Under the pieces are notes generated by a model. The model was not told where the DNA came from. It searched no databases and was given only the letters and a program-made list of their open reading frames with translations. A program made the position numbers and the translations under genes. Shown here one piece after another: positions 21,765 to 37,526 of a DNA stretch of 41,893 bases; position 1 is the stretch's first letter, and each line of letters starts with the position of its first letter. The DNA is from Chloroflexota bacterium (GTDB lineage: Bacteria > Chloroflexota > Anaerolineae > Aggregatilineales > Phototrophicaceae), in assembly GCA_003695675.1 (NCBI GenBank), contig RFIA01000010.1, positions 1 to 41,893 on the forward strand. The letters are read 5' to 3'.

Positions 21765-22964
21765 TTGTATCGATTGCGGCAGAGATGTAATCATTGCATT
21801 GCTGATACACGTGATACACGGGTTGCAGTTTTTATTTTTGTGTTGGGATTTTTGCTATTGACACTGCGCTCACCCGCACAGGCGCAACTCAGTTGCGATA
21901 ATCCATTCGAGGGGCAAATTGTCCCCTTCTCGCGGCAGCATTGGGACTTAACCGACTTCTGCCAACATACAGTCCCTTTCAGCGAAATATTTGATGCTGG
22001 CCCATCGCGGGACACGATTCCTCCAATTGACAATCCAATGTTTGTCTCGGCTGATGCGGCTTCGGCATGGCTGAGGCCGCAGTCGCCCGTCATCGCCATT
22101 GAAGTCGGCGGCCTAGCGAGGGCCTATCCACTCGAAATCATGATCTGGCACGAAATCGTCAATGACGTGATTGCGGATATTCCGGTCGTGATTACTTACT
22201 GCCCACTGTGCAACAGCGCCCTCGTCTTCGACCGGCGCGTTGGGGATGATGTTTTGCGCTTTGGCACCACCGGCAAATTGCGCAACAGCGATTTAATCAT
22301 GTGGGACGACAAAACCCAAAGTTGGTGGCAGCAATTCACAGGCGATGCGATTGTCGGCGCATATAGCGGAACACAACTCGCCTTCATCCCTTCACAGATG
22401 GTTAGCTTCGGCGCATTTGCCGAACAATTCCCTGACGGTGAGATTTTATCGCGCAATACAGGCGCAATCCGTGAATATGGAATCAATCCCTATCTCGAAT
22501 ATGACAACAAAGAGCGTCCACCGGGATTTTTAGCCGAGATTGACGAACGCCTCCCGGCTACCGAGCGTGTCTTGGCAGGAATCGTCGATGGCGAACCGAT
22601 TGCCTATCCATTCACGTTGCTTGCTGAGCAACAAGTCGTCAACGACATCATCGGCACCAAGCCTGTCGTTGCCATCTGGCAGCCGGGGGTTGCAAGCGCT
22701 CTCGATGAAGCAGACATCAACACCTCGCGAGACATCGGCATGGCAGCTTTGTACTCGCGTGCAGTCGAAGACGCAATCTTAACCTTTTGGGTGGACGAAG
22801 AAGCCAACATCCGCGATATGGAGACTGGCAGCACTTGGAATATTTTCGGCGAAGCGATTGCCGGCGACTTGGCGGGCACACAACTACGACCCCTGCTCGC
22901 CGCGCCTCACTTCTGGTTTGCATGGGCTGGCTTTCAACCACAAACGGCTGTTTATGGTCAATGA
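21765..22964 (+). CDS. DUF3179 domain-containing protein
   Basis: Exported or membrane-anchored protein of 399 residues with a hydrophobic segment at about 22-37 followed by AQAQ, probably a signal peptide with a basic N-region. The DUF3179 hallmarks are clear: EIMIWHEIVNDVIADIPV, TYCPLCNSALVFDR with a CPLC pair, RFGTTGKLRNSDL, and a second repeat ending in HFWFAWAGFQPQT. The start is taken as the TTG at 21765 with GGAG about 8 bases upstream; other starts are possible. The function of the family is unknown to me; the CxxC suggests a metal or redox site. It is flanked by the GH18-like gene and a two-component system. Confidence 0.87.
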   Translation: MYRLRQRCNHCIADTRDTRVAVFIFVLGFLLLTLRSPAQAQLSCDNPFEGQIVPFSRQHWDLTDFCQHTVPFSEIFDAGPSRDTIPPIDNPMFVSADAASAWLRPQSPVIAIEVGGLARAYPLEIMIWHEIVNDVIADIPVVITYCPLCNSALVFDRRVGDDVLRFGTTGKLRNSDLIMWDDKTQSWWQQFTGDAIVGAYSGTQLAFIPSQMVSFGAFAEQFPDGEILSRNTGAIREYGINPYLEYDNKERPPGFLAEIDERLPATERVLAGIVDGEPIAYPFTLLAEQQVVNDIIGTKPVVAIWQPGVASALDEADINTSRDIGMAALYSRAVEDAILTFWVDEEANIRDMETGSTWNIFGEAIAGDLAGTQLRPLLAAPHFWFAWAGFQPQTAVYGQ

Positions 22965-23100
22965 TTGAGGGCATACGCTGCCGCAAATTGGTGACATTTA
23001 TCCCGTATTCGATCTACACTTATCACAAATCGCTGTTAAGCAAGCAACAAAACGCATAAAATAGTTGAAACGGCGGATTCAGAAAAGGGGATGGCAACTC

Positions 23101-24852
23101 GTGCGCTTACGAATTCTACGCTGGCTCACGATTTCTCTGCCGATCTTATTCTTCATCGGCCTCGAATTATTTGAGGACTTTGTCCTCGAACCCAAGATAG
23201 GACGTTGGCCAGCGCATCTTGTCGCGTTCATCTTGGTGGGCAGCAGCGCCACACTGTTGACGATTATCGTCTTTAGAGCGTTCGAACGCATCGAGAATTT
23301 ACTCCGTTTGCAAAATCGCGAACTTGCTGTTCTGAATGAAGTCAGTCGTGTCATCAGCGGCAGTCTTGAGATCGACGAGATTTTGTCGCTTTCACTCGAC
23401 AAGGTGTTGGATGTCACCAATTCTGAAGCCGGGGAAATTTTCTTACTAGACGCCGACACCAATGCGTTGGTCTTTAAGTTTCATAAAGGACTATTTCCCG
23501 AAGCCTTTCGTGAAATAACAAGTTTCAAAGCGGGTAGTGGTATACCGGGTCTCGTCTTGCAATCTGGGCAAGAAATCATCGTCTCTGACTTGCAATCGGA
23601 GACACGCTTCAAGCGCAGGGAATTAGTCAAACTGGGATTCCAATCGTTTGTCTGTGTGCCACTTTGTGCTAAAGATCGTGTCGTCGGCGTGATGAGCATT
23701 GCTGACCGTCATCAAATCTATGACAAAGATAGCGCGAGTCTCTTGAGCGCTATCGGCAATCAAATCGGCCTCGCATTAGAAAATGCCCGGCTTTATACAC
23801 AAGCCGAAGAAGCGCGAGGGTATCTCAATGGTATGATTGAAAGTTCGGGCGATGCGATCATCACGACATATCTCGATGGCTGCATCCGCTCGTGGAATCA
23901 TGCGGCGGAAGAAATCTATGGTTGGAAGGCCGATGAGGTCATCAATCAATATCTCCCCATGGTGCCCGAACATTTGCAAGACGAGCTAGAAGACATCATC
24001 GCCCGTTTGAAGCAAGGGGAAACGATTCGCAATCTCGAAACGGAACGGCTACACAAATCGGGGCGTTTGATTTCAGTGGTGGTCACCGCGTCGCCCGTGC
24101 GAGACACAACCGGAAATATCATCGGCTTGCTAGGCATTTCAAAAGACATCAGCGAAAACAAGCGACTCCAAGCAGAGATTGCGCATCAAAAACAGAGCGT
24201 CGCCGTTTTAGAAGAACGCGAACGCATCGCCAGAGAGATGCACGACGGCTTGGCGCAGGTACTCGGTTATGTCAACACCAAGGCACAGGCCGTACATCGC
24301 TTCCTCGAAGTTAAGAAATTTGAAGAGGCCGAAGCACATCTGACACAATTGGAAGAAGCGGCACGCGCTGTGTATGCCGATGTCCGCGAAGCTATTCTCG
24401 GTTTGAGGACTCCAATTGGTGATAATGGGAATCTGATGAAAATTCTTGAAGATTATCTGTCTAATTTTGAACAGCAGTCCAATATCAAGACGGCATTGCA
24501 CATCGCTACACCATCCCTGTTTGATGAATTCGAGCTGCCGGTTGAAGTCCAGTTGATTCGCATTGTACAAGAAGCATTGACCAATGTGCGGAAGCACAGC
24601 CAAGCGCAATCGGTGTGCATCAAATTTGAACGGGTTCATCACTTCGCCCGTATCACCATTGAGGACGATGGACAAGGGTTCAACACACAAGCGGTGCATT
24701 ATGATGGCGAGTGGCCGCGCTTTGGTTTGCAAACGATGCGTGAACGCGCTGAAGGTGTAGATGGTTCGCTCACGATTCACAGTGTGCCGGGTAGCGGGAC
24801 TCGAATTTGCGTCACCCTCCCATTAAGTAAAAAAGAGGACAGCGATGGATAA
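23101..24852 (+). CDS. Sensor histidine kinase with GAF and PAS domains (NarL-type partner)
   Basis: Membrane-anchored histidine kinase of 583 residues. Two transmembrane segments (about 6-25 and 40-60) flank a short loop; then a GAF domain (about 90-235), a PAS domain (about 245-355) with a PAC-like end, a HisKA_3 dimerisation domain with the phospho-acceptor in EREMHDGLAQ (H381), and a HATPase domain with an N-box (ALTNVRKHS) and DDGQGF. This is the NarX/DegS type. A TTG at 23065 would add 12 residues but has no ribosome binding site; the GTG at 23101 follows AAAAGGGG. Its last 8 bases overlap the response-regulator gene, so they form a pair. The signal is unknown. Confidence 0.88.
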   Translation: MRLRILRWLTISLPILFFIGLELFEDFVLEPKIGRWPAHLVAFILVGSSATLLTIIVFRAFERIENLLRLQNRELAVLNEVSRVISGSLEIDEILSLSLDKVLDVTNSEAGEIFLLDADTNALVFKFHKGLFPEAFREITSFKAGSGIPGLVLQSGQEIIVSDLQSETRFKRRELVKLGFQSFVCVPLCAKDRVVGVMSIADRHQIYDKDSASLLSAIGNQIGLALENARLYTQAEEARGYLNGMIESSGDAIITTYLDGCIRSWNHAAEEIYGWKADEVINQYLPMVPEHLQDELEDIIARLKQGETIRNLETERLHKSGRLISVVVTASPVRDTTGNIIGLLGISKDISENKRLQAEIAHQKQSVAVLEERERIAREMHDGLAQVLGYVNTKAQAVHRFLEVKKFEEAEAHLTQLEEAARAVYADVREAILGLRTPIGDNGNLMKILEDYLSNFEQQSNIKTALHIATPSLFDEFELPVEVQLIRIVQEALTNVRKHSQAQSVCIKFERVHHFARITIEDDGQGFNTQAVHYDGEWPRFGLQTMRERAEGVDGSLTIHSVPGSGTRICVTLPLSKKEDSDG

Positions 24853-25513
24853 ATTACGGGTATTATTAGCAGACGACCACGCTTTGTTTCGTGATGGCAT
24901 TGCCAGCTTGTTGACGGCGTGGGATATAGAGGTCGTGGCGCAAGTTGCCAACGGCGCAGAGGCCATCAAAAAAGCGGGTGAACTTCGGCCAGATTTGATT
25001 CTAATGGACATCAACATGCCCGAAGTTGACGGACTTGAAGCAACGTGTCGCATCAAAGCGCAATGGCCTGAAATTCAGATCGCTATTCTGACTGCATCGG
25101 ACGATGACGAAAATCTCTTCGAGGCCATTAAGTGTGGTGCGCAGGGTTATTTGTTGAAGAACTTAGACGCAAAGGAATTCGGCGAATTACTCTCCGACTT
25201 AGCAAGAGGTGAAGCTGCCTTGCCCAAGACACTCGCAGCCCGGATACTGACCGAATTCGCACGGCAATCGCAAAAGCCTGAAGCGCAATCTGACGAAGAG
25301 GCCGACGAATTAACCCCTCGTGAGCGGGATGTCCTCAAATTGCTCGCCAATGGCATGAGCAACAAAGAAATTGGCGCTCAGCTTTCCGTCAGTGAAAATA
25401 CAGTCAAATACCACGTTCGCAATATCCTCTCAAAATTGCACCTTCGCAGCCGCACCCAAGCCGCAACTTATGCCATTCGCAAGGGCTTGGCCAACGATAA
25501 TACGGCCAACTAA
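24845..25513 (+). CDS. NarL/LuxR-family response regulator
   Basis: Response regulator of 222 residues. The receiver domain (1-120) has acidic residues D10 and D11, the phospho-acceptor D55 (LILMDINMP) and the Lys of LLKN. The C-terminal LuxR/NarL helix-turn-helix lies at about 153-215 (LTPRERDVLKLLANGMSNKE). It overlaps the kinase gene by 8 bases and is surely its partner. Two hairpins follow its stop, so it ends the transcript. Target genes are unknown; the polysaccharide genes upstream or the redox operon downstream are the nearest candidates. Confidence 0.93.
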   Translation: MDKLRVLLADDHALFRDGIASLLTAWDIEVVAQVANGAEAIKKAGELRPDLILMDINMPEVDGLEATCRIKAQWPEIQIAILTASDDDENLFEAIKCGAQGYLLKNLDAKEFGELLSDLARGEAALPKTLAARILTEFARQSQKPEAQSDEEADELTPRERDVLKLLANGMSNKEIGAQLSVSENTVKYHVRNILSKLHLRSRTQAATYAIRKGLANDNTAN

Positions 25514-25791: not shown

Positions 25792-25824
25792 AAGAGGCGA
25801 GCCGAGACTCGCCTCTTTATTTCT
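25792..25824 (+). terminator. Terminator- or attenuator-like hairpin before the propeller gene
   Basis: AAGAGGCGAG at 25792-25801 pairs with CTCGCCTCTT at 25808-25817 around the loop CCGAGA, followed by TATTTCT. It lies 34 bases before the propeller ATG, downstream of a candidate promoter, so it could attenuate the redox operon or end readthrough from upstream. Confidence 0.6.
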
Positions 25825-25858
25825 ATACATGTAAATCCACCATTTGGAGGAGGATCAA

Positions 25859-27301
25859 ATGACCAAACACAAACTTTTTATCGGCCTCGTTATCGCCCTA
25901 TTGGTCGGGCTGGCGGTGTTCGGTAGCACACTGGCACAAGACACCGGCCCGATGGGCGAAGAACCCGTATTCCAGCCACTCACACAAGAAGAGTGGGCCA
26001 CCGAATTCTCTGAACGACTCGATATTCAACTGCTGGCACACTTCGACTCAAGCGGCCCACCAGCGTGGGATTATGAAGAACATCCGTTGGTATTTATCAC
26101 GACTGAGGGGCCCGGTTATGGTGGTTTCTTGTCAACCGTAACGACACCGGGCTTGACGATTATCGACGCCGACACGCATGAGATCGTCGCCACCCGGCAT
26201 TATGATCTTGGCATTGAAGAATACTTTGAGTCGCACGGTCTTGGGGTATCGCCAGATGGGCGCTTTATCTATTTGCCAACCGGCGACTTACGACTTCGCG
26301 ATCAAGGCAATGCCGGACGTATATTAATCATCAACGCACAGACGCTCGAAATTGACATGGTTTTGAGCACGAAGAGTATGCCGCATCACTTCAAATCGTT
26401 CACCAATGCGGATGGTGTCCCCCTCGTGATGGGTGAAGATTTCAACTGGCAAGCGCCGCAATTCGGTGTTCGACCGGGTTCGGGCATCTACGTCTTCGAC
26501 CCGGCAGACAACAACCGTGTCGTTGGTGGTGTGAATGCCGACACACTGCAAGCCAACCCATATCTCGCATTCGCGCATCCCAGTGGCGAGACAATCTGGA
26601 TCGGCTTACCCCCCGGCCCAATCCGCGACTCCGACTTGCGGCATCATCTCGAAGGCACGTGGGCTGTTGTCAGCACCGAAACATGGGAACCGGTCGATTA
26701 TTTCCTCGGCGGTTTCGACCCCATCTGGACGGCATTCTCGTCGGACGGTGAATTCGCCTATCTGTGCGACGGCGGTTCTGATCTCGTCTGGAAAGTCGAT
26801 GTCGAAACGATGACCGTGCTCGGCGAAAATCGCTCTGCCGTACACGGCGCCTATGGTTGCCATCTCGGCTGGGACGAAACCCAACTGTGGATGATCGAAA
26901 AAGGCGAAGCATCGCACAATCGTGGCAAGAATATCGGTTTATACGACACCGTCTTGCAGACCCCGCGCGACATTTTCAATACCGGCTGGTTACGCGCCGA
27001 TCATGGCACCCTGCACCCCGACCCCGAAGTCAACGAATTGTGGGTCACATCGAACTCAAGTTTTGAAGTCGTCGTCTGGAATATGGGGACGATGGAAGTG
27101 ACGGATCGTATTCCAATGCCGAACGGTGGGAGCACACACTCCGGCGCATTCGTCTTCTACGATGGTGATTTCAACGGCATGGTACTAGCCGACCAAAATG
27201 GCACGCATGGCCCGGCCCGCGAAGCGCAGATCGCTATCGCCGATGCCGTTGGTGGAGAGGCGCCAGTCCTACCCGTTCTCCCCTTCCGTCAAGGCAGCTA
27301 A
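25859..27301 (+). CDS. Secreted YVTN/cytochrome d1-type beta-propeller protein, His-rich
   Basis: Exported protein of 480 residues. The signal peptide is about 1-27 (ending STLAQ). The rest consists of propeller blades with turns such as GVSPDGRFIYLPTGD, AFAHPSGETIWIG and AFSSDGEFAYLCDGG. Histidines recur at blade-start positions: H126, H176/H177, H240, H262/H263, H329, H335, H353, H382, H386 and H427, which could point into the central channel. Similar folds include cytochrome d1, nitrous oxide reductase and methanethiol oxidase-type propellers; no haem-c motif is present here. The ATG at 25859 has a strong GGAGGAGG site. A terminator-like hairpin follows. Its neighbours are copper and cytochrome genes, so a metal enzyme is possible but unproven. 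Confidence 0.78.
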   Translation: MTKHKLFIGLVIALLVGLAVFGSTLAQDTGPMGEEPVFQPLTQEEWATEFSERLDIQLLAHFDSSGPPAWDYEEHPLVFITTEGPGYGGFLSTVTTPGLTIIDADTHEIVATRHYDLGIEEYFESHGLGVSPDGRFIYLPTGDLRLRDQGNAGRILIINAQTLEIDMVLSTKSMPHHFKSFTNADGVPLVMGEDFNWQAPQFGVRPGSGIYVFDPADNNRVVGGVNADTLQANPYLAFAHPSGETIWIGLPPGPIRDSDLRHHLEGTWAVVSTETWEPVDYFLGGFDPIWTAFSSDGEFAYLCDGGSDLVWKVDVETMTVLGENRSAVHGAYGCHLGWDETQLWMIEKGEASHNRGKNIGLYDTVLQTPRDIFNTGWLRADHGTLHPDPEVNELWVTSNSSFEVVVWNMGTMEVTDRIPMPNGGSTHSGAFVFYDGDFNGMVLADQNGTHGPAREAQIAIADAVGGEAPVLPVLPFRQGS

Positions 27302-27321
27302 TGTAAATTAATTTATTTCGT

Positions 27322-27356
27322 TTTCCCGGTCATATTGACCTGATATGACCGGGAAA
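27322..27356. terminator. Strong terminator-like hairpin after the propeller gene
   Basis: TTTCCCGGTCATAT at 27322-27335 pairs perfectly over 14 bp with ATATGACCGGGAAA at 27343-27356 around a 7-base loop. Only short T-runs follow. It could make the propeller transcript more abundant than the downstream genes. Confidence 0.7.
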
Positions 27357-27439
27357 CCTCTTTAGAAGCATGTTTTTGAAAAAGTTATTTGAAACAAAAA
27401 TGGCAACAATTTTCGATAACAAATAGATGGAGCGCAGGA

Positions 27440-28456
27440 ATGAACACTCGACAACAGCGAACGACTATCCACTTCAATCCAATCTTCATGACATCAATGT
27501 TTTTTGTCACCCTCGCCACAACATTGCTCATCTATTTTGCATTCTCAGGCATGACAGGCATCGCGGTCGCGCAATCGGATGGCGAGTTTGACCCCGATCT
27601 GTTGGCTCGTGGCGAAGCGCTGTTTCAGCGTGAAGCGGGTGGCATTGGCTGTCAATATTGTCATGGTCAAGATGCACGCGGCGACATCGGCCCCAATATT
27701 CTTGGCAAATCGCCCGAAGCAATTTTACAGGCTATCGGCACGGTACAGATGATGGAAGTTGTGACTGATGTCACGGCAGAAGATGCCGAAGCGCTTTCGA
27801 TTTATCTGGCATTTTTAGATGCGCAAAGCACAACATCGTCGAGCGACGACACATCTGACACATCTCAAGATGGCGACACATCCGCCAATAATCAAACCAT
27901 CGCGATTGACCTGAGCGCTGCCACAGGCGATAACGACACATCGGGCGGTTCGGATAACAACGAAGTCATAAGCGTGGATTTAGGAGCTGCGACAGGCAAT
28001 AGCGCGTCGGATAGCTCGGACAACAACGAAACCATCACGGTTGACCTGAGCAATCTCGGCAGGCAAGACGATGACTCGTCAGATGCAGAAACGCTCCTAG
28101 AAATTGACGGCGATGCAGAAAATGGCGCGGCGCTCTTTACAGCCAATGGATGTTCGGCTTGTCATAATTTTGACTCAGATGACGCCCTCGTCGGTCCCGG
28201 TTTGTTGACGATTGCTGAACGCGCCGCGTTGCGCGTCGAAGGACTAGATGCGGTCGAATATATCCGGCAGTCGATTGTTGAGCCAAGTGCATTTGTCGTC
28301 GAAGGCTTTCCGCCTGCCATGCCTCCCTTCACGACACTCAGCGAAGAGGAAGTCAACGATCTCATTGCGTATTTATTCACATTGAATGCCGACGCTGAAC
28401 ACGCGGATAACACCGACGCAGTAGAACCTGTAGCGACCGAAGAAGTCTCGCCCTAA
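27440..28456 (+). CDS. Di-haem cytochrome c protein with Ser/Asp-rich repeat linker
   Basis: Exported protein of 338 residues with an N-terminal signal or anchor (about 15-45). Two cytochrome c domains are visible: CQYCH at 71-75 and CSACH at 238-242. The second has the candidate axial Met in MPPF (M294); for the first, M104 or M105 is possible. The linker (about 130-215) is rich in Ser, Asp, Thr and Asn and contains three copies of a unit centred on IAIDLSAATG, VISVDLGAATG and TITVDLSNLG. The ATG at 27440 follows GCAGGA; the open frame extends upstream but lacks a site. It should carry electrons outside the membrane for the redox proteins of the operon. Confidence 0.85.
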   Translation: MNTRQQRTTIHFNPIFMTSMFFVTLATTLLIYFAFSGMTGIAVAQSDGEFDPDLLARGEALFQREAGGIGCQYCHGQDARGDIGPNILGKSPEAILQAIGTVQMMEVVTDVTAEDAEALSIYLAFLDAQSTTSSSDDTSDTSQDGDTSANNQTIAIDLSAATGDNDTSGGSDNNEVISVDLGAATGNSASDSSDNNETITVDLSNLGRQDDDSSDAETLLEIDGDAENGAALFTANGCSACHNFDSDDALVGPGLLTIAERAALRVEGLDAVEYIRQSIVEPSAFVVEGFPPAMPPFTTLSEEEVNDLIAYLFTLNADAEHADNTDAVEPVATEEVSP

Positions 28457-28483
28457 CGTAACAGAGATGGAGGATTGGTAATC

Positions 28484-29074
28484 ATGAACAAAAGTGGCAC
28501 ATTGATGTTCATTGTTTTAACGGCACTCGTTCCAATTATTGGCGGCTTATTCTTATTCGGTTCAAACGACCCACAACCGACGATAGTCAACGATGTTGTC
28601 AGCGTAGATTTAGGCGAAGAGCAGGCCATCTCCAATGAAGTCATGCAATCCGTGCTCAGCAGACCGGATGATGCCGCGCTCGAACCGATTGAGAATTCGC
28701 GCATCGACATCATGCAAGATGGGTCGCCCGTCCCCATCCGTAACGGACAGACCGTCCAAATTACAGACAATCTGCAAGCCAATCTTCAAATTTCGCCATA
28801 CCCGCCGACCGATTTTGAAGCAGACATCGACATTTATTTGACGACCGAAGATGGCACGCCAGTCAACGATGCAGAGTTTGATCTTGATTACGATATGCTC
28901 TTCATGCGGCACGGCGAATCAGAAGCCGTCTTTGAAAATCTCGGTGATGGTCATTATCAAACATCGGTCGATTTCTTGATGTATGGCTCGTGGGCGATGG
29001 ACACAAATATCACACTGCCAGGACAAGATGAGCCAATACCGATGCCCTTTGTTATCAAAGTATGGCCGTCATAA
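28484..29074 (+). CDS. YtkA/FixH-like membrane-anchored protein, copy 1
   Basis: Protein of 196 residues with an N-terminal transmembrane anchor or signal (about 5-26), the segment VVSVDLG at 38-44, and a beta-sandwich domain (about 75-196) with YPPTDFEADIDIYLTT, MLFMRHG, GDGHYQTSV and MYGSWAMD. The pattern of GxY and GxW turns fits YtkA/FixH-like domains, several of which sit in copper or cytochrome oxidase assembly operons. The Met/His cluster MLFMRHG could bind copper. The ATG at 28484 follows GGAGG. The next gene encodes a paralogue. Confidence 0.75.
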   Translation: MNKSGTLMFIVLTALVPIIGGLFLFGSNDPQPTIVNDVVSVDLGEEQAISNEVMQSVLSRPDDAALEPIENSRIDIMQDGSPVPIRNGQTVQITDNLQANLQISPYPPTDFEADIDIYLTTEDGTPVNDAEFDLDYDMLFMRHGESEAVFENLGDGHYQTSVDFLMYGSWAMDTNITLPGQDEPIPMPFVIKVWPS

Positions 29075-29129
29075 ATTTGAAGATAGCCTATGTATTCGAT
29101 GATATTCGATGAATGGGGAGGCAGCAGCA

Positions 29130-29798
29130 ATGCGCACCAATAATCTCATCAATCGCACAACATTATTGATTATCGCGATTGTGTTGGTTATTGCTGCTGC
29201 CTCGCGCTTTGTCATCTCATCACAAACACGGTCAACGCCGCAATCTGTGGCAAATTCAGAAACTGCGCCGGTGAACGCAACAACCGAAGATCAAGCGGCA
29301 GAGCCAGCAGCCAACGGCAGCGAAAATAATCTCGTCGTCAAAGTTGATCTCAGCAGCTTAGGGTCGGCGAGTTCGTCGAATACCGATGAAACATCAGAGC
29401 GCGAGTCCACACGCATTGAAATCATGAAAGACGGTGTATCAGTCCCGGTCAACAATGGCGAAGCTGTTCCGCTTGGCGACGACTTGCAAATCGAGGTCTT
29501 CGTCTCGCCCTATCCACCCAACAGTTTCAATGCAGATGTTGATTTTTATTTGACGACAACCGATGGCGAACCCGTCACGGACGCGACTTTCGATCTCGAA
29601 TATGACATGTTGTATATGTTTCATGGCGCGGCAGAAGCGCCGTTCAACAATCTCGGCAATGGTCATTATTTGACGTCGTTGTATTTCTTGATGTATGGCT
29701 CGTGGACACTCGATACGGTGATTGAAGTCCCCAATCATGATGACCGCTTGACATTGCCGATGGTCTTATACGTTTGGCCAACAGAGCAGGATGGTTAG
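29130..29798 (+). CDS. YtkA/FixH-like membrane-anchored protein, copy 2
   Basis: Protein of 222 residues, paralogous to the previous product (EYDMLYMFHG, NLGNGHYLTSL and FLMYGSWTLD in matching places). A transmembrane anchor (about 10-30) is followed by a Ser/Thr/Glu-rich linker containing NNLVVKVDLSSLG at 66-78, then the beta-sandwich domain (about 95-222). The ATG at 29130 has GGGGAGG about 8 bases upstream; an in-frame ATG at 29109 has none. The Met/His block could bind copper. The second copy suggests a heterodimer or a duplicated chaperone. Confidence 0.75.
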   Translation: MRTNNLINRTTLLIIAIVLVIAAASRFVISSQTRSTPQSVANSETAPVNATTEDQAAEPAANGSENNLVVKVDLSSLGSASSSNTDETSERESTRIEIMKDGVSVPVNNGEAVPLGDDLQIEVFVSPYPPNSFNADVDFYLTTTDGEPVTDATFDLEYDMLYMFHGAAEAPFNNLGNGHYLTSLYFLMYGSWTLDTVIEVPNHDDRLTLPMVLYVWPTEQDG

Positions 29799-29802
29799 TA
29801 TC

Positions 29803-30795
29803 ATGAATAGGCGACGCTTGATTATCTATTCATTATTCTTCATCTGTGGGGTGATGTTTTTCAGTATCGGTTATCCCGTTTACAGTCATGGCAAAGAAGT
29901 GAATATTAGCATTTCATCGCTCTTCCCGGACTCATCACAACCGTTGACGAGATTGTATCGCGTGGTCGTCACATTCGATGATGGTGACCCGGTTGAAGAC
30001 GCCGTCATCGAGATGCGGGCGGTACGGCAAGAAGGTGGGCAAACCATCGATGGGATTGTTTTTCATGCTCTCGGCGAACCGGGTTTATACGCGACCGAAG
30101 TCACTTACGAACGCTTCGGCAATTGGGACATCACCGTGATTGTCAGCGAACCGGGCGAGGGCGAAGCAACTTTTACGGACGCGATTGTCCCCGGCGCGTC
30201 GGCCTCCGGCGAAGAGCAAACCACCACCGCAAGTATCCCGACTGACCTATCCGTGTTTTTCACATTTAATGTTCGAGATTTCGTCAATATCGTTTTCCGC
30301 TTTGTGCATTCGCTGGCTGGAGTCGCATGGTTCGGTCTCATCGCCGTCGTGCTGGTCGCGCACCGCTTTATGGAACCAGAAGCCGAATACCGGACACTGC
30401 TGCGACTCAAAACGATTTTCTGGCCAGCGGCGGTGGCGAGTCTCTCGATATTGCTTTCAAGTGGTATCTACAACGCCATTTGGGACGCCCCGATTCGCGC
30501 ACCCGGCGTGTTCAATTTAGATACGATGCTCTCGATTCCATTTGGCGATGTGTATCTGGCCGCCTTCGCTGGAAAAGTCATCGCTTACGGGCTGCTCGTC
30601 GTCTCGACGATTCGGCTGGGGCGCTCGCTGTCAACTATACCCGAAACGATTCCCGAAAACCCAATTGACGAAATTCAACCGGTGACTCGCACGGCGTTCA
30701 TCGCCGCCGGTATCGGGGCCCTTCTAGCAATCAATATCGCCGTGCTGATTTATATGCACTACATCAGCCATTTGAGTATCGTCATTCCGCAATAG
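29803..30795 (+). CDS. CopD-like membrane protein with N-terminal extracytoplasmic domain
   Basis: Protein of 330 residues: signal segment (about 5-24), an extracytoplasmic beta domain (about 30-145, with DDGDPVEDAVIEMRA and YERFGNWDITVIV, similar in pattern to YtkA-like domains), then four transmembrane segments (from RFVHSLAGVAWFGLIAVVLV to the C-terminus). The membrane part resembles CopD copper-resistance proteins, in which membrane His residues near HSLAG are conserved. The N-terminal domain may replace CopC or YtkA. I use the ATG at 29803; an in-frame ATG at 29791 overlaps the previous gene. It may import copper or handle a small molecule for the propeller or cytochrome proteins. Confidence 0.72.
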   Translation: MNRRRLIIYSLFFICGVMFFSIGYPVYSHGKEVNISISSLFPDSSQPLTRLYRVVVTFDDGDPVEDAVIEMRAVRQEGGQTIDGIVFHALGEPGLYATEVTYERFGNWDITVIVSEPGEGEATFTDAIVPGASASGEEQTTTASIPTDLSVFFTFNVRDFVNIVFRFVHSLAGVAWFGLIAVVLVAHRFMEPEAEYRTLLRLKTIFWPAAVASLSILLSSGIYNAIWDAPIRAPGVFNLDTMLSIPFGDVYLAAFAGKVIAYGLLVVSTIRLGRSLSTIPETIPENPIDEIQPVTRTAFIAAGIGALLAINIAVLIYMHYISHLSIVIPQ

Positions 30796-30812
30796 ATCAC
30801 AAAAGGTGTATT

Positions 30813-32213
30813 ATGGCTACCTTAATCCAAACATCAAAAAATCAAATCAAATTCTCACCACCATCGCCACTTTCTTATAAAAAGCCGCTTTTCGTAGCGC
30901 TGGTGATTGTCGCCATGATGGTCGGGTCATTTCTCTACCTCTCGGATGACACATTGATGCAAGGCGCAGCCGCAACCACGTCAACAGTTGATGCGGAAAT
31001 CGCCGCGCTGACACCGAACGAAGTCGGCGAAATATTGCTGCGCAACGGCGTTGGCCCCAACGATACTGCGTTAGACATCTTGTACGCGCCGACATGGTAC
31101 TTCGACTGGAATCAACGCACACTGCCGGACACAACAGAGCCGGTGTTAGCCTTCTTCGTCATGGAAACGATTCACAGTGGGCAACTGATTGACGAACCCC
31201 CACAAGCCTTGCTACAAGTTGACGACAAGCTTCTCGAACCGCTTCGGTCTGAAGTCGTCAGCGATGCGCCGCATCATCGTGTTTCGCAAGTGCTCTTCAA
31301 TCTGTTCGACGCAGACGGCAAACCATACATCACCGATGACAGCGAACAAATCACGCTCGTGACGCCAATTGATGGCCTGATTTCAAGCGGCAATACGTAT
31401 CGCTGGGATTTACCGTTACCTTACGGTCTGGGCGCGTTGAATACCCCCAATGAATTCGGCAGCCCGGTGCGGGGTGCGCTGACGTGGACGGCTTTCTTCG
31501 CCATCATGGGTGGGATGCTGTCGGCGCTGTCGCCATGTTTGTTACAACTGGCCGTGTATTACACTGCCGTATTAACCGGCACAGAAGCGAGTGTCGGTGC
31601 GCAGGCCGGGCAACCGAACGCTGCACGACTCGAATTGATGAAGACGAGCTTCTACTTTGTCGGCGGTTTCACGCTTGTCTATACGGCTGGCGGTGTGTTG
31701 GCCGGTTATGTCGGTCAATCGTTGGAACAACTCGCCGGATTGGAGCAATGGTTCCGCCCGATTTCAGTTGTATCCGGCGTTCTGATTATCATCATGGCGG
31801 TTCGAGTCGCGTTGCAGGCAAAAGCGCCGCTCGTCTGCCGCATACCGATGCGCGTCGGCGCAGGCACGGGGCGAATCGCATCGGCCACGATGGGACTCAG
31901 CTTTGCGATTGGTTGCTTGTCCTGCTTCAGCGCGACGGTGCTGTCGGCTCTGCTGCTGTACGCCGGTTCAACCGGTTCGCCGATTTCTGGCGGGATGCTG
32001 CTGTTCTTATTCTCGTCGGGTGTCGGGTTGGTCTTCCTCACGGCTGCTTGGGGTATCGGGTCAGCCACGCCGCAGATGACCGATTGGCTGCAACGGTCGC
32101 GGCCACTCATCGGCGGCATCAGCGCATTGGTGATGGTCGTCTTCGGTCTCTTGATGATTACTTATGAATTCCACACGGTTAGTGGTTTTCTGTTCAAGTT
32201 GTTCAATTCATAG
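30813..32213 (+). CDS. CcdA/DsbD-type cytochrome c biogenesis transmembrane protein
   Basis: Membrane protein of 466 residues. A first transmembrane segment (about 25-44) is followed by an extracytoplasmic region (about 45-215) of unknown fold. A CcdA/DsbD-like core of six or so transmembrane segments then begins at about 220, with the conserved Pro-Cys LSPCLLQ and the second Cys block GCLSCFSA. These cysteines would pass electrons from cytoplasmic thioredoxin across the membrane, for haem-c maturation or for reducing copper chaperones. The start ATG has an AAAGGTG site. The long N-terminal domain is more than a plain CcdA carries. Confidence 0.82.
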   Translation: MATLIQTSKNQIKFSPPSPLSYKKPLFVALVIVAMMVGSFLYLSDDTLMQGAAATTSTVDAEIAALTPNEVGEILLRNGVGPNDTALDILYAPTWYFDWNQRTLPDTTEPVLAFFVMETIHSGQLIDEPPQALLQVDDKLLEPLRSEVVSDAPHHRVSQVLFNLFDADGKPYITDDSEQITLVTPIDGLISSGNTYRWDLPLPYGLGALNTPNEFGSPVRGALTWTAFFAIMGGMLSALSPCLLQLAVYYTAVLTGTEASVGAQAGQPNAARLELMKTSFYFVGGFTLVYTAGGVLAGYVGQSLEQLAGLEQWFRPISVVSGVLIIIMAVRVALQAKAPLVCRIPMRVGAGTGRIASATMGLSFAIGCLSCFSATVLSALLLYAGSTGSPISGGMLLFLFSSGVGLVFLTAAWGIGSATPQMTDWLQRSRPLIGGISALVMVVFGLLMITYEFHTVSGFLFKLFNS

Positions 32214-32231
32214 GCGAAAAGGACATGGACG

Positions 32232-33113
32232 ATGAACGCATCATTTCGTCTATCATCGCAAAAGCAGAATGTGTGGCCAGTTGTGCTGATTGTGGGTACG
32301 GTGCTCATTGGATTGGTCGTGCGCTTTGCAATCGTCCCAACATCGGGTCTCGGCGCATCGGTATCGTCATTCCTACCGTGGCTCAATCAAACCGAGATCA
32401 CAACATTTTATGCCGACGACAGTGGCGTCATCATTCCGGTATCGCAACGTGTCGTGTCAGACAGCCAACCGGACGCATTGCTCAGTTTGTTCAATACGAC
32501 AGCAGGTATCAACACTGATGTCATCAGTCAGGTGTCCGTAGAAAATGGTGTCGCGCAGGTTGACCTCTCGCCGCAATTCAGCCAGTCGGCTTCGGAACTC
32601 GCATTGTGGAGCGTAGCACAATCGGTCGCGACATGGCCCGGTGTCGATAGGGTGCAACTTTCTGCAAATGGCACAACAATCGACTTCACAGCAGAGAACA
32701 TCACGCCGGTTTATTACGTCCGCGATGAATTGATTGTCGGCGTGCCGGTCACAGCGAGTACACCGCGTGAAGCGTTGGACGCTTATCTCGACTTGACGAC
32801 CGCGCCGGAATTGACGGCGCTGCCGGATGATGTGCAATTGTTGGATTATAACTTCAACCCGGCCAACGGTTTACTCGCGTTAGACTTCAGCTATACACCG
32901 ACGCTGCGCGAATTCGCCATCGCCGAACCGGACGCGATGCGCAGTGTATTGACGGGTCTCATCGCCACGATGACAACCTTCCCCGAAGTCTCAGCCGTGA
33001 CGCTCGACTTTGAAGGCCATTCGCAGCTCGGTCTCGGTCAATGTTCCAATCTGCTGCGTGCGCCACAAACCCATCCGACGATATTAAACGATGCCCGGTT
33101 ATTCAATCGCTGA
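32232..33113 (+). CDS. GerMN domain-containing membrane-anchored protein
   Basis: Protein of 293 residues with one N-terminal transmembrane segment (about 15-36), no lipobox, and two GerMN-like halves (about 50-150 and 165-270). The motif pattern VENGVAQVDLSPQF with LLSLFN and the VAQSVATWPGVDRVQLSANG strand-helix-strand fits GerMN/sporulation-spore-germination domains. Similar domains occur in LpqB and in many Gram-positive and Chloroflexota envelope proteins. It is 5 bases before the cysteine desulfurase gene and is the last of the extracytoplasmic genes of this operon. The function is unknown. Confidence 0.75.
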   Translation: MNASFRLSSQKQNVWPVVLIVGTVLIGLVVRFAIVPTSGLGASVSSFLPWLNQTEITTFYADDSGVIIPVSQRVVSDSQPDALLSLFNTTAGINTDVISQVSVENGVAQVDLSPQFSQSASELALWSVAQSVATWPGVDRVQLSANGTTIDFTAENITPVYYVRDELIVGVPVTASTPREALDAYLDLTTAPELTALPDDVQLLDYNFNPANGLLALDFSYTPTLREFAIAEPDAMRSVLTGLIATMTTFPEVSAVTLDFEGHSQLGLGQCSNLLRAPQTHPTILNDARLFNR

Positions 33114-33118
33114 GGAGC

Positions 33119-34294
33119 ATGATGATGTCCACAATATATTTTGACAATGCCGCAACATCTTGGCCGAAGCCGGATGTTGTGCAAGTAGCAATCGGTCATT
33201 ACTTTGGTTTGGCGGGTGGCAATCCGGGGCGGTCGGGTCATCGCATGTCGATTGCGGCCTCGCAGGTGGTCGAAGATGCCCGCGATGCACTGGCCGACTT
33301 ATTCAACGTCGCAGACCCGGCGCAAATCGTATTCGCGAAGAATGCGACCGAAGCGCTCAATTTGGCAATTTACGGCTGGCTGCAACCGGGCGACCACGCC
33401 ATCACGACAAGTCTGGAACACAACTCGGTCATGCGGCCCTTACGCCATCTCGAATCAAAGGGGCTTGAACTCACCGTTATCAATTGTGCGGCAGATGGCA
33501 CCCTTGATGTTGAGGCTGTGCGACAGGCGTTCAAAAGCAATACGAAATTATTGGTGACAACACACGGCTCTAACGTTGTCGGCACCGTGATGCCAATCAA
33601 ACAATTGGCTGAAATCGCGCATGAGCATGACGTGCCGTATCTCATTGACGCCGCACAAACGGCCGGTGTGCTGCCGATTGATGTCGAAGCACTTGGCATC
33701 GATATATTGACCTTCACTGGGCACAAAGGCTTGTACGGCCTGACGGGAACAGGCGGCCTCTACATTCGCGAGGGGTTGACGCTCAAGCCGTTGATGCGCG
33801 GCGGCACCGGCAGCGACTCGGCCTACGAATATCAACCGACGTTTTTGCCGGACATTTATGAAAGCGGCACGCCGAACGTCGCGGGATTGACCGGGCTGGC
33901 AGCTGGTGTGAATTTTTTGCTAGAAACGGGCATTGAACAAGTCGCGGCACACGAACGCCGACTCATGACGCGCTTTCTCGACGGCACACGCAATATACGC
34001 GGCGTGACGGTCTATGGCCCGGATGATGTCGGTATCCGATGTGGTGTCGTTTCTTTCAATATCGATGGTCTCGTACCGTCCGAAGTCGCGCTGCTGCTCG
34101 ACCGCGAGTATAGCATTATGTGCCGACCGGGACTGCATTGTGCGCCCCGTGCGCATCACTCACTCGGCACATTTCCAACAGGGACGGTGCGCTTTAGTTT
34201 CGGATATTTCAATACGCTGGCCGAAATCGATACAGCAGTCAACGCGCTGCGCGAATTGATAACCGTTGCCGAACAACAAAAAGTATCCTCGTGA
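33119..34294 (+). CDS. Cysteine desulfurase family protein (class V aminotransferase)
   Basis: PLP-dependent class V aminotransferase of 391 residues, the family length. H101 (SLEHNS), D177 and Q180 (LIDAAQ), the PLP lysine K203 (TGHKG) and the catalytic cysteine C341 in RPGLHCAPRAHHS are all present, so it should release sulfur (or selenium) from cysteine (or selenocysteine) as a persulfide. The RPGLHCAP signature belongs to the subgroup often found beside selenium or sulfur transport genes. Three consecutive ATG codons (33119, 33122, 33125) follow GAGGAG; the third has the best spacing. The next genes encode a DUF3343 Se/S carrier-like protein and YedE halves, so it probably feeds sulfur or selenium to that path. 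Confidence 0.88.
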   Translation: MMMSTIYFDNAATSWPKPDVVQVAIGHYFGLAGGNPGRSGHRMSIAASQVVEDARDALADLFNVADPAQIVFAKNATEALNLAIYGWLQPGDHAITTSLEHNSVMRPLRHLESKGLELTVINCAADGTLDVEAVRQAFKSNTKLLVTTHGSNVVGTVMPIKQLAEIAHEHDVPYLIDAAQTAGVLPIDVEALGIDILTFTGHKGLYGLTGTGGLYIREGLTLKPLMRGGTGSDSAYEYQPTFLPDIYESGTPNVAGLTGLAAGVNFLLETGIEQVAAHERRLMTRFLDGTRNIRGVTVYGPDDVGIRCGVVSFNIDGLVPSEVALLLDREYSIMCRPGLHCAPRAHHSLGTFPTGTVRFSFGYFNTLAEIDTAVNALRELITVAEQQKVSS

Positions 34295-34305
34295 AGGAGG
34301 TTTTC

Positions 34306-34626
34306 ATGGCAGTCTCATTAGATGGTCTTTTCAGTTTCTTCGCTTCACATCATGCAATCCGCGCTGAGCGCGTGCTGTCTCGCAGTGGTTTCGCTGTTGA
34401 GTTGATACCGGGGCCGAAAGAACTCAGCCCGAATTGCGGTATCGCCTTGCGCTTTGAGTATGACCGGCGCGATGAGGCGACTGCCCTGCTGGCAAGCAAG
34501 CGCGTACAAATTGACGAAGTGCATTTTTATCAACCGCGCATTGATGGCATGTCGCCGAGAAAAGCAGAAACCGCAACCGTAAAGCCTGAACCGAAGAGGA
34601 AGTGGAAATGGCTGCCACAGAGTTAA
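34306..34626 (+). CDS. DUF3343 (putative Se/S carrier-like) protein
   Basis: Small cytoplasmic protein of 106 residues. The DUF3343 pattern includes FASHHAIRAERVL, IPGPKELSPNCGIALRF and a C-terminal beta strand EVHF. The single cysteine C44 in NCG is the proposed persulfide or perselenide carrier site in this family. A perfect AAGGAGG ribosome binding site precedes the ATG at 34306. The last 19 bases overlap the first YedE half. Its place between a desulfurase and a YedE transporter matches reported selenium and sulfur gene clusters (family knowledge, not shown here). Confidence 0.85.
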   Translation: MAVSLDGLFSFFASHHAIRAERVLSRSGFAVELIPGPKELSPNCGIALRFEYDRRDEATALLASKRVQIDEVHFYQPRIDGMSPRKAETATVKPEPKRKWKWLPQS

Positions 34627-35120
34627 AGCATTGGGTTGCCAACAGACCGCGTGCGAAGGTTCGCGTCACCGGCTTACAGACGGGCATCGTCATGGCGCTG
34701 CTAGCCGTCATCGTCGGCACATTCTTCGCCGTGCGCCCGCCCGAAGCCTATGGCATCTGCATGGCCTGTCATGGACGCGACCTCATCAATTCGCTATTGA
34801 ACAGCAATATTGGGACGCGGTTGACGGTCTCGCAAGCATCGCTGGTATTCCCCTTGCTGACGACGGTCGGCGTCGTCATCGGAGCGGGCATCGGCGCGGT
34901 GTCGAGTGGCGAATTCAAGCGCCGGACACCGGACAATCCGGTGCGCACGTTCATCTACGGCGTACTCGTCATGAATTTTGCCTTGCTTGCGGCGGGCTGC
35001 TCGATTCGTTTGTTGCTGCGTTTTGCACACGGCGAGTTGCTCGGCTTTCTCGGTTTCGGCGGGATGGTACTCGGCGTCGTCACCGCAACCTATTGGCTAC
35101 AATGGAGGGCGCAGCGATGA
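34608..35120 (+). CDS. YeeE/YedE family transporter, N-terminal half
   Basis: Membrane protein of 170 residues with about four hydrophobic segments. The YedE/YeeE signature blocks are GICMACHGRDL (C51, C54) after the first membrane segment and AAGCSIRLL (C131). Full YedE/TsuA proteins have about 330-400 residues with two pseudo-symmetric halves; here the second half is the next gene. The family imports thiosulfate (TsuA) or is proposed to import selenium compounds (seleno-YedE). The CMACH sequence resembles a haem-c site, but it is at the position of the conserved cysteines of this family. The start is set by AGGA 7 bases before the ATG at 34608. Confidence 0.82.
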   Translation: MAATELKHWVANRPRAKVRVTGLQTGIVMALLAVIVGTFFAVRPPEAYGICMACHGRDLINSLLNSNIGTRLTVSQASLVFPLLTTVGVVIGAGIGAVSSGEFKRRTPDNPVRTFIYGVLVMNFALLAAGCSIRLLLRFAHGELLGFLGFGGMVLGVVTATYWLQWRAQR

Positions 35121-35536
35121 CAACAGCAGCAGTTGCGAGTCTCATCGTCGGGTTGATTATCGGTTATCTGGGGCAGCGTTCGCGGATGTGCTTTGTCGGC
35201 GGTATTCGGGATTTTATTCTCGTGCGGGACACATTCTTGCTCAAGGGCTTGATTGCTTTCGGGCTTGTGGCGTGGATTGCATTCCCCATTGCGGAACAAC
35301 TTGCAGGCAATCTATCTACATTGGATGCGTCGTTGGATACGACGACACTGATTTTCACGCTCGTCGGCGGTCTCGGCGTCGGGTATTTGTCGGTGTTGGC
35401 GAACGGCTGCCCCTTTCGGCAGCACGTGTTAGCCGGGCAAGGCATCATGAGTTCGGTGACGTATCTAGCAGGTTTCTACGTCGGCGCGGTCATCTTTCAT
35501 CTGGTCGTGCTGCCCTTGCTGTTGCGGATTTCGTAG
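35117..35536 (+). CDS. YeeE/YedE family transporter, C-terminal half
   Basis: Membrane protein of 139 residues with about four hydrophobic segments. The signature blocks are GYLGQRSRMCFVGGIRD (C25) and LANGCPFRQH (C98), matching the repeat of the YedE/YeeE fold. The ATGA overlap with the previous gene (GGAGG 8 bases upstream) shows translational coupling. Together the two proteins total 309 residues, close to one full-length transporter, so they probably form a heterodimeric channel for a small sulfur or selenium anion. It ends the rightward array; the next genes point the other way 22 bases later. Confidence 0.85.
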   Translation: MTTAAVASLIVGLIIGYLGQRSRMCFVGGIRDFILVRDTFLLKGLIAFGLVAWIAFPIAEQLAGNLSTLDASLDTTTLIFTLVGGLGVGYLSVLANGCPFRQHVLAGQGIMSSVTYLAGFYVGAVIFHLVVLPLLLRIS

Positions 35537-35558: not shown

Positions 35559-36536
35559 TCATCTTTGTACTACATTGCGGACGGCCTGCGCGATACGATT
35601 AGCATTTGGTATAATTTCGTCTTCAAGTGGTGGACTGTAGGCGACGAGTGTGTGCCCCATGTTGACACGAATCACCGGCGCGTCAAGCCAATAGAGTCCT
35701 TCGTTGGCCGCCAACGAAACGATGTCGCCGCCCCATCCCGCAGCATGAGGCGCTTCTTCAACGACGACAAGCCGCGATGTTTTCTTAATTGAAGTCAGCA
35801 CGGTTTCAGTATCCATCGGCACCATAGAACGCAGGTCAATCACTTCGACATCAATGCCTTCATCGGCTAATGTTTCGGCGGCTTCAAGCGCCCGGTGCAT
35901 CATCAGTTGCGTAGCGACAACCGTGACATCGCCACCTTCACGTCGGATTTGTGCCTCGCCGAGTCTCATCGGTTGGATGTTGTCCGCCACATCTTCCTTC
36001 ATGTTATAGAGCATTTTGTGTTCAAGCACGAAGACCGGATTGTCCTCGCGGATCGCACCGCGCAGCAGGCCATACATATCGGTCGGCGTCGAAGGACTGA
36101 CGACCATGATACCCGGATGCTGCATCAGCCACGCCTCGGCACAGGCCGAGTGCTGCGTCCCGAAACCGGCACCGCCGCCTTGTGCCGCTCGAATCGTGAG
36201 CGGTATCGTGAACTGCCCGCCGCTCATATAACGATATTTGGCAATTTGATTGACAATTTGATCCATCGCGACCGGGATGAAGTCGGCGAACATCAATTCA
36301 GCCACCGGACGCAAGCCGGTGATAGCCGCACCCAAAGCCGCCCCGATGATGGCCTGTTCCGCAATCGGTGTATCGCGCACACGATTGCCGCCGAATTCGT
36401 CATACAAACCGGGCGTGACTTTGAACGCGCCGCCCGCTTTCGCCACATCCTCGCCGAAGAAGATGACATTGTCGTCGCTGCGCAATTCGTCTGCTAACGC
36501 TTTTTGTACGGCTTCACGATAGGTCATTTCCGGCAT
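35559..36536 (-). CDS. 2-oxoacid/acetoin dehydrogenase E1 component, beta subunit
   Basis: Thiamine diphosphate-dependent E1 beta subunit, 325 residues, normal for PdhB/AcoB-type proteins. The N-terminal EDVAKAGGAFKVTPGL block, AEQAIIGAALGAA and the central block of Ala/Gly-rich strands (FGTQHSACAEAWL) are conserved. It forms the active site with the alpha subunit, whose gene lies 6 bases upstream (36543). The start ATG has GGGGGGAGA, inside the end of the alpha gene. No E2, E3 or lipoyl-protein gene is present nearby, so the complex must use partners encoded elsewhere, or the pair acts as an acetoin or branched-chain type E1. Confidence 0.9.
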   Translation of the reverse strand: MPEMTYREAVQKALADELRSDDNVIFFGEDVAKAGGAFKVTPGLYDEFGGNRVRDTPIAEQAIIGAALGAAITGLRPVAELMFADFIPVAMDQIVNQIAKYRYMSGGQFTIPLTIRAAQGGGAGFGTQHSACAEAWLMQHPGIMVVSPSTPTDMYGLLRGAIREDNPVFVLEHKMLYNMKEDVADNIQPMRLGEAQIRREGGDVTVVATQLMMHRALEAAETLADEGIDVEVIDLRSMVPMDTETVLTSIKKTSRLVVVEEAPHAAGWGGDIVSLAANEGLYWLDAPVIRVNMGHTLVAYSPPLEDEIIPNANRIAQAVRNVVQR

Positions 36537-36542
36537 GATGGT

Positions 36543-37526
36543 TTATCTCCCCCCTGCGTAGACATCTTGATAAGCGGCTTCAAGCAGCGGGAAGGGTTCG
36601 TTCTTCGCCCACTCCAACGCTTCGGCAACTTTGCGCTCGGTGGCCTGTTGCAATTCTTCAAATTCGACAGCATCCAGTTGACCGTCTTCAATCATCCGGT
36701 CGCGTAGAATGTGAATCGGGTCGCGTTGCAACCATGCTTCGAGTTCGCCTTCAGGACGATACGGCCCGGTGTCGGTGCGTGAATGCCCACGATAACGATA
36801 CGTTTTGAGTTCAACCAGCGAGGGGCCATCCCCGGCGCGGGCGCGTTCGACAGCCGCGCTGACATGAGCATGAACCACCTCGACATCTTGCCCGTCAACG
36901 ATGAGGCCGGGGATGTTATAGGCACAGGCGCGGTCGGCAATATTTTCGACGGCGGTGGTTGTGTGCAATGGGCTGTATTCGCCATAAAGATTATTCTCAC
37001 AAATGAAGACAACCGGCAACTTCCAAACAGCAGCCATATTGAGCGCTTCATGAAACGCACCGATGTTGACCGCGCCGTCGCCGAATAACGCCACTGTGAC
37101 ATGATGACTGCCTTTGACCTGTGACGTTAACGCGGCGCCAACCGCAATTGGCAAGCCCGCGCCGACAATTGCGTTCGCGCCCAGCAAACCGACCGAGGCA
37201 TCGGTCATGTGCATACTCCCCCCCTTGCCACCACAACAGCCGCTCGCCTTGCCCATCATCTCGGCCATCAGCGTCTTAATCGAAATCCCCATCGCCAGCG
37301 CGTGGCCATGCCCGCGATAGGTACAGGTCATCATGTCGCCTGGTTTGAGCGCCCATGCGACACCGACCGAACACGCTTCTTGCCCATCACAAAGATGCGT
37401 CGTGCCGCGCACCAGATTGGCGAGAAATAAGCCTTGAATCTGCTCCTCGGAATAGCGGATGTCGAGCATACGTTGAAGCATGTCCATTCGTGTTTGTTCG
37501 TCTAACGCTTTGACCGTGATGTCCAT
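36543..37526 (-). CDS. 2-oxoacid/acetoin dehydrogenase E1 component, alpha subunit
   Basis: E1 alpha subunit of 327 residues. The thiamine diphosphate motif runs from GDG at 149-151 to NN at 178-179. Other conserved parts are TYRGHGHALAMG (RGHGHA at 71-76), GKGGSMHM near 101 and TYRYRGHSRTD in the regulatory loop. PdhA and AcoA are the closest well-known types; the substrate (pyruvate, acetoin or another 2-oxoacid) is not decidable. The gene is 11 bases after the Gfo/Idh/MocA gene, which is first in this leftward operon, so it serves the same sugar-acid type pathway. Confidence 0.9.
   Translation of the reverse strand: MDITVKALDEQTRMDMLQRMLDIRYSEEQIQGLFLANLVRGTTHLCDGQEACSVGVAWALKPGDMMTCTYRGHGHALAMGISIKTLMAEMMGKASGCCGGKGGSMHMTDASVGLLGANAIVGAGLPIAVGAALTSQVKGSHHVTVALFGDGAVNIGAFHEALNMAAVWKLPVVFICENNLYGEYSPLHTTTAVENIADRACAYNIPGLIVDGQDVEVVHAHVSAAVERARAGDGPSLVELKTYRYRGHSRTDTGPYRPEGELEAWLQRDPIHILRDRMIEDGQLDAVEFEELQQATERKVAEALEWAKNEPFPLLEAAYQDVYAGGR

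Follow-up and report, generated by a model that had tools for sequence, protein, structure and literature searches.

A predicted secreted seven-bladed propeller and a CcdA/DsbD-type membrane protein mark a putative redox gene module shared by distant bacteria and archaea

Results

Gene content of the locus

The stretch of DNA analysed, called the window in the following, comprises 41,893 nucleotides from a Chloroflexota metagenome-assembled genome (MAG) of 4.7 Mb in 421 contigs. A preliminary description, made from the sequence alone, had proposed that eleven ORFs, from a propeller gene to a split YedE, form one system that couples extracytoplasmic oxidation of a sulfur or selenium compound to its uptake. 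All eleven ORFs could be verified on the plus strand with the coordinates given there, and their family assignments agree with our domain scan (Table 1). With ATG or GTG starts, the propeller gene is separated from the cytochrome c gene by 138 bases, while the later gaps in operon order are 27, 55, 4, 17, 18, 5, -4, -19 and -4 bases. This upholds the described spacing of 4-55 bases with terminal overlaps (two of 4 bases, one of 19 bases). The hairpin ahead of the cytochrome gene is not a standard terminator, and no T-run follows its stem; it is possibly an attenuator or stabiliser. A search of a plasmid collection gave no match.

Table 1 Features of the module region. Coordinates refer to the window.
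Feature	Coordinates	Strand	Basis and remarks
GAF/PAS sensor histidine kinase	23065..24852	+	GAF_2, PAS, HisKA_3, HATPase; propeller-adjacent homologues in many module loci
Response regulator	24845..25513	+	51-57% identical homologues adjoin propeller or kinase in L031, L033, L048, L056
Terminator-like hairpin, 5' of propeller	25792..25817	+	10-pair stem, then T-rich tail; consensus match only
Secreted seven-bladed propeller, predicted copper-type redox protein	25859..27301	+	AF2 model, PDB fold matches, invariant His
Inverted repeat between propeller and cytochrome genes	27324..27358		15-bp stem, -22.8 kcal/mol, T-run absent
Di-haem cytochrome c, predicted electron partner	27440..28456	+	Two cytochrome c stretches; elsewhere adjacent or fused to propeller
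YtkA-like protein	28484..29074	+	PF13115, E 6.9e-9; homologues in L032, L053
YtkA-like protein	29130..29798	+	PF13115, E 1.7e-7; homologues in L048, L051
YtkA + CopD-like membrane protein	29803..30795	+	PF13115 just under cut-off; membrane helices
CcdA/DsbD-type membrane protein with three-His extracytoplasmic domain	30813..32213	+	DsbD_TM; phyletic match to propeller
GerMN-domain protein	32232..33113	+	PF10646 (Germane), E 1.3e-16
Cysteine desulfurase/selenocysteine lyase type, probable accessory	33119..34294	+	TIGR01977, 481 bits (cut-off 377)
DUF3343 Se/S carrier (Se_S_carrier), probable accessory	34291..34626	+	PF11823, E 4.5e-17
Split selenium-type YedE, N-terminal half	34608..35120	+	TIGR04112 positions 4-134, 58.8 bits
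Split selenium-type YedE, C-terminal half	35117..35536	+	TIGR04112 positions 183-307, 86.7 bits

Fold and invariant histidines of the propeller

The propeller matches no Pfam family at E<=0.001, and a phmmer search of the window protein against PDB sequences found nothing. Its AF2 model (pLDDT 85) has seven blades with seven inner strands. The nearest PDB chains belong to generic propellers of the YVTN and lactonase kind; N2O reductase (Z 27.4, 307 residues aligned, rmsd 3.0) and thiocyanate dehydrogenase (TcDH; Z 25.8 over 319 residues) score in the same range, and therefore the fold alone leaves the function undecided. By sequence, too, its closest PDB relatives are generic YVTN propellers, some of which are not redox enzymes.

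More can be learned from residue conservation. Among 28-29 homologues, 14 residues between positions 80 and 450 are fully invariant (numbering of the ORF 25844-27301), and five of these are histidines: H131, H181, H182, H387 and H432. All five are located within -3 to +2 of the start of an inner strand in the model, at the channel end of the strand, where N2O reductase has its copper ligands. Assuming that 11% of the propeller falls into such zones, the chance of four independent matches is about 2e-4. Listed by blade, the invariant pattern of the family is HH,-,-,-,H,H,H; the window propeller carries an extra histidine (H334) on a further blade, and some other members also add histidines. We infer that this cluster binds copper.

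In several loci the propeller is fused to a redox domain, either a cupredoxin (L033, L034, L035, L015; L numbers denote loci) or a cytochrome c (L045, L049, L037), and thus it is likely, as judged from sequence, to be a redox protein. Its signal is of Sec type or lipoprotein type. The earlier view of an extracytoplasmic redox protein is thus supported; its partner is a cytochrome or cupredoxin, and copper-type proteins are encoded around it.

The CcdA/DsbD-type fusion is the signature partner of the propeller

The CcdA/DsbD-type protein (DsbD_TM, E 1.4e-12) is a fusion with an N-terminal extracytoplasmic domain. In this domain H121 and H155 are invariant and H154 is found in 17 of 18 sequences; among the membrane cysteines C242 is present in all 18, and C368 and C371, which form a CxxC motif, in 17 of 18. 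The predicted structure of the domain is an Ig-like sandwich, for which no significant structural match was obtained (best Z 7.2), the copper protein CrdA being among several ties at 7.0.

Among 400 Chloroflexota genomes, the propeller was found in seven (with a profile built from two propellers; an alignment of nine divergent ones proved too variable for scanning contigs) and the fusion, also by profile search, in six. All six are among the seven propeller genomes (hypergeometric P 1.3e-12). The seventh genome has a completeness of 74%, and the contig in question stops just past the propeller. Only two further genomes among 150 of the class have a strong orthologue of the fusion, and in both of them the propeller adjoins it. 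The fusion is thus the signature partner of the propeller. It had been assumed that the propeller, being set apart by a hairpin, is the gene with the weaker link to the others; its link has turned out to be firmer than that.

The module is found in distant phyla

A scan restricted to one genome per species yielded 20 module loci, most of them on MAG contigs, some of which are short. The hosts are Chloroflexota (including SAR202), Thaumarchaeota, Alpha-, Beta- and Deltaproteobacteria, Woeseiaceae, Fraserbacteria, Acetothermia, Tectomicrobia and Trueperaceae. The recurrent order is propeller, then cytochrome c or cupredoxin or YtkA/CopD, then CcdA fusion, and hosts with adjacent propeller and fusion genes include Thaumarchaeota, Proteobacteria, Fraserbacteria and Acetothermia; genes for cytochrome c, cupredoxin, YtkA or CopD-like proteins are located between the two or behind them. 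A search for the same gene order elsewhere, which had been recommended, has thus recovered the order of the redox core across phyla, and the arrangement is therefore not due to chance. Divergence of the propeller is correlated with that of the fusion (r=0.48, Mantel p=4e-4, computed with no control for the species tree). The fusion is missing from the four genomes of the class sample that belong to the same family; together with the scattered host phyla, this suggests that the module spread horizontally between distant bacteria and archaea.

A GAF/PAS kinase and/or a regulator similar to those of the window occur near the module in most loci with sufficient flanking sequence. The two-component pair at 23065-25513, which lies upstream of the region considered in the preliminary description, is part of the same conserved neighbourhood. 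The YtkA/CopD-like protein has homologues with 33-35% identity at the equivalent position in L032 and L051. A Sco1, PCuAC or HMA-like protein is encoded near the module in some hosts; L040 and L044 are the loci with the copper chaperones SCO1 and PCuAC. No GerMN gene was seen at the other module loci examined. In agreement with the preliminary description, we found no described system with this gene set in the open-access literature searched.

The sulfur/selenium genes are probably a lineage-specific addition

The last genes of the operon encode a desulfurase, a DUF3343 protein and a split YedE. Both YedE pieces match Sulf_transp. On TIGR04112, the model of the selenium-type YedE, which is the nearest type, one piece corresponds to the N-terminal and the other to the C-terminal half; their scores of 58.8 and 86.7 bits compare with a cut-off of 200 bits that was set for the full-length protein. 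The two halves (34608-35536) overlap and follow each other in N-to-C order. In the first half, the stretch CMACHGRD happens to read as a CxxCH motif.

The same three families make up a described selenium-trafficking set of YedE, DUF3343 and Sec lyase (PMC5322559). A SelD-containing genome is expected for that set, and the host encodes a selenocysteine-containing SelD (E 1e-107) with one in-frame TGA. The window trio differs from the described set in that YedE is split in two and the genes are located behind a redox operon. Two adjacent half-length transporter genes are also known from the YeeE/YedE pair PmpA/PmpB (PMC11582611), whereas the window halves score better against selenium-type YedE and are in N-to-C order by that model.

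DUF3343 is found in 48 of the 150 genomes of the class, but beside the module only in the genome of the window. A TIGR01977-like desulfurase adjoins DUF3343 in 19 of the 30 loci read, and the window desulfurase has homologues with 49-59% identity next to DUF3343 genes elsewhere, where the module is absent. Two genomes of the same family (G018, G052) have SelD and lack DUF3343, and therefore the trio is not needed for selenium use there. Selenium dependence of the whole module was rejected, as SelD over the cut-off is missing from several module genomes (Thaumarchaeota, Acetothermia, Trueperaceae, Woeseiaceae and Deltaproteobacteria).

Sulfur-related genes of other kinds occur near some module loci: a YedE-family gene in L050, SufS with a SufU-like gene in L031, and a gene for a predicted secreted rhodanese, which directly follows the CcdA fusion in L014 and is close to it in L043. 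No sulfur genes were noticed nearby in L035, L039, L040, L045, L047, L048 and L053. A looser link of the module to sulfur is thus possible. Of the preliminary reading, the extracytoplasmic redox propeller with its electron partner stands, while the sulfur/selenium genes as a built-in part are not borne out: at most homologous loci the redox genes occur without them, which had been named beforehand as a refuting outcome, and DUF3343 is common without the module. Desulfurase, DUF3343 and split YedE are probably, on sequence grounds, an accessory add-on particular to this lineage.

Comparison with known propeller enzymes

Profile searches against the methanethiol oxidase, N2O reductase and cytochrome d1 families had been proposed; none of them gave convincing membership. 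The eight-bladed d1-haem propeller of cytochrome cd1, NirF and NirN does not agree with the seven-bladed model, and we attribute the weak Cytochrom_D1 matches of 11 among 25 members to similarity of the repeats. SELENBP1/methanethiol oxidase is a copper-dependent seven-bladed propeller with an HH pair and further channel histidines (PMC10362175), but has other acidic ligands. Its family SBP56 (PF05694) is not matched by the window propeller and is not among the 25 listed of 47 families that the 25 members match at E<=1, so that SBP56 membership is not convincing.

Features are also shared with N2O reductase (NosZ). Both proteins are seven-bladed, Sec export is as in clade II, both have histidines, including an HH pair, at the entry of inner strands, and in some module members a cupredoxin is fused or adjacent. 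In 35 clade II NosZ sequences the propeller histidines, found at the same kind of sequence position, follow the pattern HH,H,-,H,H,H,H. The pattern of the window family is a subset of these seven invariant CuZ histidines, with two blades not invariant. As a random choice would give such a subset about half the time, the location of the histidines is telling and the pattern is weak evidence. NosZ has a C-terminal CuA domain, whereas the window protein ends after the propeller, and the fused cupredoxins of L033-L035 lack a CxxxC pair and look like the blue-copper type rather than CuA. No nosD/F/Y/L accessory genes were noticed in the module neighbourhoods, and in a profile-profile alignment with NosZ the repeats were out of register. 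Among recently named groups, lactonase-type NosZ (NF052460, equivalog cut-off 700 bits) is the nearest. It is matched weakly by 17 of the 25 members (best E 4.8e-15; window propeller E 0.011, 14 bits), and no protein in the 400 Chloroflexota genomes exceeds its cut-off. NosZ membership was rejected since all 25 members stay under every NosZ cut-off in the Pfam and NCBIfam scan.

The gene for TcDH, a secreted copper propeller of seven blades, has copCD, cytochrome c and two-component genes in its vicinity (PMC5328954, PMC6504805, PMC9456337). Its active-site list (K103, H135, H136, Q156, H206, E288, D314, H381, H437, H482, H528, D529, R544; PMC6504805) contains an adjacent HH pair, and the histidines come in the same order. 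Compared by list, TcDH has seven histidines plus Lys, Gln, Glu, Asp and Arg, whereas the window family has five invariant histidines. TcDH carries a Tat signal and the window propeller a Sec-type one, and a CcdA fusion is not mentioned in the TcDH literature searched. A profile of 25 propellers matches TcDH in the PDB marginally (8q9x, E 4e-4; 5f75, 0.5), but generic propellers match better. To judge by sequence, the propeller is not recognisably a thiocyanate dehydrogenase.

Discussion

Proposed function of the module

We consider it rather probable that this horizontally spread module encodes a secreted, seven-bladed propeller oxidoreductase of copper type, which would form a new family and for which the module would also provide the electron and copper supply. 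The histidine cluster would hold copper, and the cytochrome or cupredoxin would shuttle electrons between this site and the respiratory chain. Copper would be supplied by the YtkA/CopD-type proteins, and in some hosts by Sco1, PCuAC or HMA-like proteins. The CcdA-type protein would transfer thiol reducing power or copper through the membrane, its three-histidine domain would touch copper on the outside, and the kinase-regulator pair would switch the gene set on. Desulfurase, DUF3343 and split YedE would be a set for selenium/sulfur trafficking acquired by the operon in this lineage. By analogy with the other copper propellers, the substrate of the propeller would most likely be a small molecule that contains sulfur or nitrogen; that a sulfur compound is oxidised is one of several possibilities.

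That all these genes serve one pathway appears unlikely to us. Here the propeller would oxidise a reduced sulfur or selenium compound outside the cell, as TcDH does, and the sulfane sulfur (or selenium) set free would enter through the split YedE and be passed by DUF3343 to the desulfurase. The overlapping genes at the operon end, the rhodanese, YedE-family and SufS genes near other module loci and the gene neighbourhood of TcDH as a precedent (PMC5328954, PMC6504805) argue for it. Against this, most module loci lack such genes, DUF3343 is widespread without the module, and rhodaneses are common genes. Cyanase, which would point to the use of thiocyanate, is missing from 19 of the 20 module genomes; this is a weak point as Thioalkalivibrio also lacks it.

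Somewhat less likely still is a module for copper homeostasis or copper sensing, with the propeller as a copper-binding protein and not an enzyme. YtkA, CopD-like, SCO1, PCuAC and cupredoxin proteins nearby as well as the two-component pair would fit, but the adjacency to cytochrome c and the fusions indicate electron transfer, and five invariant histidines in one channel fit an active site.

We regard it as improbable that the metal site of the propeller incorporates sulfur or selenium supplied by the trio. CuZ of N2O reductase carries sulfide, the invariant histidines are at NosZ-like positions, and sulfur-donor genes of different kinds adjoin the module in different phyla. However, desulfurase and carrier are cytoplasmic while the propeller carries a signal of Sec or lipoprotein type, an exporter resembling NosDFY was not seen, most loci have no sulfur genes, and only five histidines are invariant. 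An outlying nitrous oxide reductase or other N-oxide reductase, to which the fold match, the weak lactonase-type NosZ matches and a CuA-like cupredoxin in L014 could point, is just as improbable, given that no match comes near 700 bits, generic propellers score equally or higher, two NosZ histidine blades have no invariant histidine here and nosD/F/Y/L were not noticed.

The favoured reading, a secreted propeller oxidoreductase, can be carried further, at the price of becoming speculative: the family might be a further class of copper propellers with a substrate of its own, a dedicated maturation membrane protein and repeatedly recruited sulfur- or selenium-donor genes of different kinds for making or servicing the metal site. 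We hold this to be rather unlikely. If true, the class would join N2O reductase, thiocyanate dehydrogenase and methanethiol oxidase. The known copper propellers carry out environmentally weighty reactions, namely N2O removal, thiocyanate breakdown and methanethiol oxidation, and a further family with an invariant histidine site in subsurface and marine bacteria and archaea hints at an as yet unassigned periplasmic reaction. The pair of propeller and CcdA fusion is a clear genomic marker that allows direct tests of substrate and metal.

Additional propellers and neighbouring genes

More than one module propeller is present in some genomes, either in tandem or at separate loci (L031, L030, L042/L043). 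A YncE-like second propeller is located behind the module in three proteobacterial loci (L040:14631-15800, L044:7883-9142, L045:3631-4746) and is accompanied by SCO1 or PCuAC in two of the three. Behind the module of L014 (8688-10972), two CuA-like cupredoxins surround a NapH-like membrane iron-sulfur protein, an arrangement which recalls the electron supply of NosZ. A DUF3179 gene is located 5' of the kinase in the window (21765-22964), and in L039 (Thaumarchaeota) and L047 (Acetothermia) such genes also occur no more than about 6 kb from the module. At the other end of the operon, genes named by eye as pyruvate dehydrogenase-type E1 beta and alpha (35559-37526) are encoded on the opposite strand, convergent with the operon.
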